Shown piece by piece: positions 57,678 to 60,600 of a stretch of DNA of 64,000 nt. The notes beneath the pieces are model-generated. The model was not told where the DNA came from, ran no database searches, and saw nothing but the letters and a program-made list of their open reading frames with translations. The stretch comes from Thermoplasmatota archaeon (lineage in GTDB: Archaea; Thermoplasmatota; Thermoplasmata; UBA10834): contig JAHIRF010000012.1 of the NCBI GenBank assembly GCA_018818785.1, positions 1 to 64,000 of the forward strand, written 5' to 3'. The position numbers were made by a program, and so were the translations under genes. Every line of letters starts with the position of its first letter. The first letter of the stretch is position 1.

Positions 57678-60600
57678 AAGCGGCTACAACTTTTAGTGGC
57701 TGCGGGCTGAATACCTCGGCGGACCTTGGTACTTACACCCCAGCTCTATCAACGCCATCATGTAATGGCGGTTGTAAGATGCCTCGTTTTCGGGGTGACT
57801 TCAAGCTTAGATGCGTTCAGCTTTTATTCACTATCGCGTGGCTGCTCAGCATTGCCTTGCCAGACAACTGATAGACTAGAGGCGACGAATCCTCGTTCCT
57901 CTCGTACTAAAGGATCCTTCCCGTCAGGCATCAAAACACTTCCAGCAAAAAGCAACAAACCTGTCTCACGACGGTCTGAACCCAGTTCACGATCCCTTTT
58001 AATGGGCGAACAACCCCACCCTTGGCAGCTGCTGCACCACCAGGATAGGAAGAACCGACGGCGAAGTAGCAAGCCTCCAGGTCGATATGAACTCTTGCTG
58101 GAGACGACTCAGTTATCCCCGGGGTAACTTCTCTGTAATCACTGACCCCCACTAGTGAGGTACAGTGGTTCGCTAGGCCCTGATTTCTCATCGTGGATCA
58201 TTGTTGGGCTGATCCACGTCAAGCCGGCTTTTGCCCTTGCACTCTTCGATAGATTTCTGACCTATCTGAGCCGACCTTAGGGCGCCCTTGTTATCTTTTC
58301 GAGGGCGTGGCGCCCCACCCAAACTGCCCACCTACCGGTGTCCATCCGAGGATGTAAGTGGTACGAGTTCAAAAGAGCGGTGTTTCATCGTCGACTCGGA
58401 ACTGACCTAGCGGTCAGCCCTGGTAACGTCTCCCGCCTACACTACACAATTGGACTCATATCACAACGACAGGTTGCAGTAAAGCTCCACGGGGTCTTCG
58501 CTTTCAGCTGGAAATTGACGGACTGTGCGCCGTCATGTAGGTTTCACCGGCCTCGACGCGGGGACAGTAGAGCTCTCGTTGGGCCTTCATGCAAGTCGCC
58601 AATTAAGCGACAAGGTATTACGCTCACTTCTGTTGCTTTCGTGACCTCCGATCTATCGGAGGCGGACCATGATTTCTCATGATCTCCGCATGTCGCCATG
58701 CGGGTCGGACTATATCTTCGCCATCAGTTGGCGTTCGGCGTATAGTCTCTGAGGATTCCAGATCATCGATCTGGCCTTTCCTGCTGATTACCTGCACTCA
58801 CACATTTTCACTCATCGAGTAGTGTGAGATACTCAGGCGTCCCAGCATATGGCCGAATTTTACTAAGGCAACGCAGTCACCTTAAGAGGGTCATAGTTAC
58901 CCCCGCCGTTTAACGGTCCTTTGCTCCCTTGTAAAGGAGTTTCAGATACCGTCACTGGGCAGGATTCAGCGGCAATACACATCCTTTCGGACTAGCTGCC
59001 ACCTATGTTTTGGTTAAACAGTCGGGGCTCCCTTGTCACTGCGACCAGCTCATCACTGAGCTGGCACCGCTTCTCCCTAAGTTACGCGGCTAATTTGCCG
59101 AGTTCCCTCGCGTCAATTAACGCCGACAGGCCTTAGACTTCTCATCCAGGGGCACCTGTGTCGGATCTTGGTACGAACACTCCAGTTGTTTAACACATCC
59201 CTTTTCACGGACACCCGGGATAGGCTGAAGAGGGCCTTCGCCCTCCTACTCGTGATTTCGCCCGGTTCTCACCATTACGGTTCTCCCCAGGCATATACAC
59301 TTGAACAGATTGGCGCTCCTGCTCAGCTTACCCAGATGTGTCAGGATGTGTGCAGAGACTGGAGCGGTGCAGGAATATTAACCTGCTTACCCTTTCGATG
59401 TTCTCGGTTAAGGAACACCTTAGGATCGACTAACCCTCGACTGACGAACATTGTCGAGGAACCCTTGCCCCTACGGCCGAGCGGATTCTCACCGCTCTTT
59501 GCTGCTACTCCCACCAGGATCCTCATTCGAATGCGGTCCATTCGACCTCACGGCCGAACTTCTATCCGCACACGACGCCCCCCTACCAGATTACCTTTCG
59601 GTACTCTCAAGTATCGGTGACTGACTTAGCCCCGTCCATTTTCAGGGCCCTTGATCTTGACCGGTGAGCTGTTACGCTATCTTTAAATGATGGCTGCTTC
59701 TAAGCCCACATCCCGGTTGTCTCTGACTAAGGACTCCTTTTGCCCGTTCACACTTAGTCAATACTTAGGGACCTTAACTTGAGGCTGGGTTGTTCCCCTT
59801 TCGCATACGGGGCTTACCCCTCATATGCTCACTCCTGGAGTCTACGGTGACGACAGGTTCGGAGTTTGGCAGGACACCGAGGGATTTCTCCCCCTAAATG
59901 TCCAATCGGTCGCTCTACCCCATCGTCCGCCTCGTCCAAGATCTACCTGCGAGTAGTTTCGGGGGGAACCAGCTATGTCCAGTTTAGATTGGCCTTTCAC
60001 CCCTAGACGCAGATCATCCCAGTGATTTGCACCTCAACACGGGTTCGGTCCTCCACCCAGGTTTCCCTGGGCTTCAACCTATCCACGCCTAGATCAACTG
60101 GCTTCGGGTCTCTCACCGATGACTACAGGCGAGCCCACCTCGTCCCTGGCCCTTGCGGGTTGCGGACTTGTCGGTTTCCCTTCGGCTGCTTGGATCATCC
60201 AATTAGCCTCGCCATCGATCCGAACTCCCTGGCCCGTTATTCGAAACGGATAATACGACATCGGTCCACTCTTGCGAGTTTCGTCCCTTGCATGCCGTAT
60301 ATTACTGTCACTGTCTGGTTTCAGGCTCTTTGCACCTCCCGTTAAGGGTACTTTTCAGCTTTCGCTCACGCTACTACTGCACTATCGGTCTCGGGTCGTA
60401 TTTAGGGTTGGAAGCCAGTGGCTCCCAGATTCACGCGCAATATCCAATGCGCACTACTCAAGGACACCCGGAATCATCTTTCCAGCTTATCTCTACAGGG
60501 CTGTTACCCTCTACGGCGCTCCATTCCAGGAGACTTCGAGTTGACTGGTTAAGATGTACCCGGGGCCTACAACACCACATCTCCGACCTATTTCTAGGCA

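Follow-up and report, generated by a model that had tools for sequence, protein, structure and literature searches.

Archaeal group I introns were surveyed in 2018 by Nawrocki, Jones and Eddy, who reported 39 of them, all in rRNA, comprising 27 of subtype IB4 and 12 of IA3, with LAGLIDADG present in 21 (PMC6125680). By our count from their table 15 of the archaeal IB4 introns lie at LSU/1931, where sizes include 281 nt (IB4.1) and 248 nt (IB4.24) (PMC6125680). The intron analyzed here, compared with these by description and not by sequence, is like them in domain, gene, insertion position, size class and possession of a complete core with P7, and several of them are likewise short enough to hold no ORF; their hosts, however, are Thaumarchaeota, several DPANN groups and one 'Euryarchaeota', whereas ours belongs to a Thermoplasmata family. 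Group I introns are also found among the insertions at 23S position 1931 in CPR bacteria (PMC11270868), which share the site but sit in a bacterial host and predominantly encode LAGLIDADG_1, whereas our intron has no ORF. A third point of reference is the archaeal bulge-helix-bulge (BHB) intron, which is also an archaeal rRNA intron but is cut by protein and carries a motif that is missing here. In the literature searched, which covered few subscription journals, we found no later paper on Thermoplasmata introns and no report in which splicing of an archaeal group I intron was tested experimentally. The intron described below is a well-supported addition to the family known in archaea since 2018, at the same site. 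Its membership in subtype IB4 is suggested by the insertion site and by resemblance in the core.

A group I intron in the sole 23S gene

The window, i.e., the whole 64-kb stretch of DNA analyzed, is the first part of a 102-kb contig from a 1.97-Mb Thermoplasmata genome (G000; 12 contigs, 94.5% complete). It contains a full-length archaeal 23S gene on the minus strand at 57675-60859 (RF02540 match, 2752.1 bits), inside which we located a 254-nt group I intron (58878..58625, minus strand) from an Rfam RF00028 match, from relatives with empty sites and from E. coli numbering. The 5' exon (58879..60859, minus strand) ends in CTTAAGGT, its last base at 58879 corresponding to E. coli U1931, and the 3' exon (57675..58624, minus strand) starts with AGCGTAATACC; measured on rrlH of MG1655, the insertion site is exactly 1931/1932, the position an earlier note on this DNA had given. 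The contig also carries archaeal genes (DNA polymerase II large subunit, aEF-2 and an archaeal AlaRS), and the archaeal host given in the note is supported. Neither a second 23S copy nor a second match to the intron was found in the G000 genome.

The contig begins within a 16S gene, the start of which lies at 1-86 (minus strand), and the closest match to the 16S leader on this contig is from the same genus. The first bases of this 16S plus its leader are 76.6% identical over 457 nt to a full 16S elsewhere in the assembly (G000:C4:211247-212714), and the window copy is nearest to those of congeners (81–82%); either the genome carries two 16S copies that differ this much, or the bin contains a contig from elsewhere. 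The 16S and 23S genes in the window are ~58 kb apart (1-86 vs 57675-60859). This unlinked layout seems to be conserved between G000 and its relative G394, since in the latter, too, a single contig has the 16S leader ~61 kb from the 3' part of the 23S gene. Separately, an Rfam tRNA match at 2620-2729 (plus strand; 110 nt, 44 bits) that was not reported by ARAGORN is probably a tRNA containing an intron.

A DNA search of the family recovered the insertion site, whole or in part, in 11 of 19 genomes. The intron is present in six (G000; G403, G394 and G251; G397 and G400), the exons are joined directly without an insert in four (G390 and G392, of the same genus as G000, and G396 and G398), and G395 shows a single flank of the site only. 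Relatives with known records (G397, JAEHCM010000002; G400, JAJISI010000068; G403, CALMQK010000050; G394, DYTN01000009) are metagenome assemblies. Because the four empty sites show a clean join, the intron borders are fixed to the base, and because the flanking bases differ the borders cannot slide; the extent of 58625-58878 proposed in the earlier note was thereby confirmed exactly. The G394 assembly breaks just within the intron (C8 and C50; L013/L043 and L009/L044), and the two intron starts seen there differ slightly, which would fit a sample in which variants of the site coexist.

Intron structure and covariation

The Intron_gpI covariance model matched 58686-58888 (minus strand) with 64.1 bits (E = 6.1e-14), above the cut-off of 50, and all expected elements could be identified: P1, P3–P8, P9 (capped by GCGA), P9.1 (capped by GAAA), P9.2 and P10, with a G as the last base. 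Folded with its exon flanks the intron has a minimum free energy of -101.4 kcal/mol (z = -5.7), which none of 200 shuffled sequences equaled. For covariation we used an 80-pair structure that includes the P3/P7 pseudoknot and counted changes over eight related introns. P1, P3–P9 and the pseudoknot were common to all eight, with 96.7% of cells paired, and 24 of the 80 pairs (53 cells) had changes on both sides, among them pairs in P3, P5a, P5b, P6a, P7, P8, P9 and P9.1. None of 500 shuffles, which leave relatedness in, scored as high, and controls with slid partners, which keep relatedness, gave just one to six such pairs.

All elements are on the minus strand. P1 (58863..58885) pairs the exon TTAAGGT with the guide GCCTTAG, places U58879-G58869 at the splice site and reaches 10 bp with the intron extension; its core of 6–7 bp was retained in all L1931 relatives checked. 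The intron half of P10 (58870..58875) pairs over 6 bp with 58624-58619, the first bases of the 3' exon, and a P10 directly beside the guide was not found in the L1931 introns of G408, G436 and G447. P3 (58734..58857) pairs 58857-58852 with 58739-58734 (TTCGGC/GCCGAA), and two of its pairs are changed on both sides, one from U-A to G-C and the other from G-C to A-U. P4 (58782..58847; 58847-58843 with 58786-58782) is invariant and encloses P5, P5a and P5b, the last two of which covary among the eight introns. P6 (GGA/TCC) and P6a (58774-58768 with 58764-58758) together span 58753..58781, and P6 to P9.2 were likewise assigned from structure and covariation. In P7 (58708..58747) GACTATA at 58747-58741 pairs with TATAGTC at 58714-58708, enclosing the 3' half of P3, with which it makes the pseudoknot, and P8 (58733-58719). 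The earlier note had P7 as a 7-bp helix, and all seven pairs do form in the G000 intron; however, pair 6 is broken in the relative VGTL, and pair 5 (A-U in four introns, G-C in the other four) is the sole P7 pair that covaries. From this pattern P7 may be 5 bp long, with the remainder belonging to J8/7. The P9 hairpin, with its GCGA (GNRA) loop, occupies 58686..58703, P9.1 and P9.2 occupy 58645..58684, and the intron ends in a G at 58625, a base that is G in all 23 introns checked. No ORF longer than 57 residues starts inside the intron. Apart from the length of P7, the description in the earlier note (an ORF-less group I core with a U-G in P1, P3, P4, P8, a GNRA-capped P9 and a terminal G) held throughout.

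Distribution and history in the family

Within this one Thermoplasmata family the intron is patchy, being found in all three genera and missing at four assembled sites, which shows gain or loss. A tree of the 23S exons unites G000 with two intron-free genomes, G392 and G390 (100/100), and at least four changes are needed on it to account for the presence of the intron. In the intron tree G000 instead joins G394, which is of another genus (98-100/99), in conflict with the host 23S tree, and an AU test rejected a single clade of g2 introns (p = 0.0017 without G408, 0.0002 with G408). These intron trees are drawn from short data in which paired columns are treated as independent, such that stems count twice and support is inflated. 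Introns of G000 and G394 are 90.4% identical and their exons 91.2%, and the corresponding values for G403 and G394 are 81.5% and 93.9%. Since the intron tree conflicts with that of the host 23S, the intron was probably transferred between genera of the family. With moderate confidence we suggest that the G000 lineage acquired its intron from a g2-like donor after splitting from its congeners, or that intron copies recombined. The lateral origin suggested in the earlier note is thus supported as movement inside an archaeal family, by the trees and the AU test; its bacterial or organellar source is not, the closest relatives found being introns of other Thermoplasmata (75–91% identity). A pattern scan of viral contigs returned no bacterial L1931 introns.

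Among endonucleases our searches of the family covered the LAGLIDADG_1 and LAGLIDADG_3 types. A LAGLIDADG_1 gene was absent from the 19 family genomes, and LAGLIDADG_3 was not found in the G000 genome.

Related introns in the wider class

A model built on the core of the G000 intron and its relatives (R1) was run on 400 genomes of the class and gave matches in 26, a count that takes in a few weak matches and other sites; the weakest, at ~30 bits, include endonuclease-bearing introns and a contig of G284. Complete introns were recovered from L1931, L1923 and S1498; all 23 are preceded by the exon U, end in G and have a guide matched to the site in question (GCCTTA at L1931, GGGGT at L1923 and GCGACT at S1498). 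Introns of all three sites mix within one strongly supported group (100/100), in which those at S1498 form a single group (100/99) and those at L1923 and L1931 are intermixed. ORF-less introns occur at both L1923 and L1931 (L071, L073, L075, L088 and L089, in G450, G436 and G440); G450 and G436 each have two introns 8 nt apart, and the L1923 intron of G440 is 90% identical in the core to the L1931 intron of G436. The 2018 table already lists these three rRNA sites, as well as two introns separated by 8 nt (IB4.7 and IB4.15 of KP308720; PMC6125680). At SSU/1498, several genomes from families f64 and f62 have compact ORF-less introns of 228–249 nt (L076-L082, L090). A different sort of intron is seen at L1923 in G407, of the same order as G000: it is alike in its adjacent site and in the core motifs GGCTATATGCTGG and CTCAGAGACTATACGCC, but it is 725 nt long, has a LAGLIDADG_1 ORF and is distant in the tree.

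Tentatively, and at odds we would put well below even, an ORF-less lineage may have moved between genera and among LSU/1923, LSU/1931 and SSU/1498, rewriting its guide, by reverse splicing followed by recombination and without an endonuclease of its own; spread by reverse splicing has been proposed for fungal rDNA (PMC1299323). Homing in trans is a possible alternative for the three-site spread, as f64, the family with the most sites, has weak LAGLIDADG_1 matches in ORFs of 310–350 residues, and an old duplication with loss is another. Of the weak f64 matches (L226-L233, in G487, G473, G485, G474, G491, G493, G483 and G436), several lie in ORFs of this size and might serve the ORF-less introns in trans; others are in long ORFs and may be inteins.

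Outside rRNA, a locus of G284 (L039; G284:C1:10500-30400) has four group I introns within 11 kb, adjoining ORFs that match PHROG HNH endonuclease families, an integrase and a portal protein. The locus is a provirus or a virus contig in a bin of the class, and its host association is putative. A tree that included viral-contig introns sharing a 15-base core motif left the deep order unsorted, with ~170 columns and long branches meeting.

Proposed splicing and alternative explanations

We consider it about 95% probable that the insert is a group I intron of the known archaeal LSU/1931 lineage that removes itself from the 23S precursor. The anatomy matches a guanosine-initiated two-step splicing ribozyme, and we infer catalysis, splicing in the cell and the route of spread. 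In the proposed pathway the guide GCCUUAG would pair with the last bases of the 5' exon to make P1, and P7 would bind an external guanosine that attacks at the U-G pair, on the 3' side of U1931. The exon terminus so released would then attack behind the terminal G while P10 kept the 3' exon in place, and ligation of the exons would restore the universal CUUAAGGUAGCG. The 3-bp extension of P1 and P10 share the same guide bases, as expected for a switch between the two steps. Efficient removal would probably be essential, because the insert interrupts a universally conserved stretch of the sole 23S copy.

The alternative that survives best, though we think it improbable, is that the intron splices only with protein help or is weak in its own catalysis. 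Many group I introns do depend on such help, as is generally known; here, however, core and guide are intact and covarying, and the intron sits in the sole 23S copy, so removal must work.

An archaeal BHB intron, cut by tRNA splicing endonuclease and joined by a protein ligase, would be the type of rRNA intron classically found in archaea (PMC6125680). At the fixed borders, however, the 4-bp central helix between two 3-nt bulges fails, with only two of the four pairs forming and four never reached in 23 introns, which excludes BHB processing there, and such a reading would leave the covarying group I core unexplained; a BHB origin is thus very unlikely, in agreement with the earlier note.

An assembly error or a contaminant 23S is about as hard to credit: the bin has another, divergent 16S on its contig C4, which makes some mixture possible, yet five further genomes in the family have the intron as well, and the 23S exons and 16S leader of the contig both group with the same genus.

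Bacterial intervening sequences (IVS) sit in variable hairpins, whereas this insert lies in a universally conserved stretch with a complete splicing core and P10. Least credible of all is that the exons stay unjoined once the insert is excised, which would leave the 23S in fragments, or that the insert is kept in the rRNA; the former is known for bacterial IVS elements according to work cited in PMC11270868.

Implications for the family and the class

What is new here is the patchy presence of the intron within one Thermoplasmata family and the conflict between the trees of intron and host. The G000 intron is clean and compact, its structure is backed by covariation and it has congeners that lack the intron, so that it lends itself well to testing. 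In the class as a whole, a single compact intron lineage occupies three sites in rRNA, a setting in which spread by reverse splicing in archaea could be tested.
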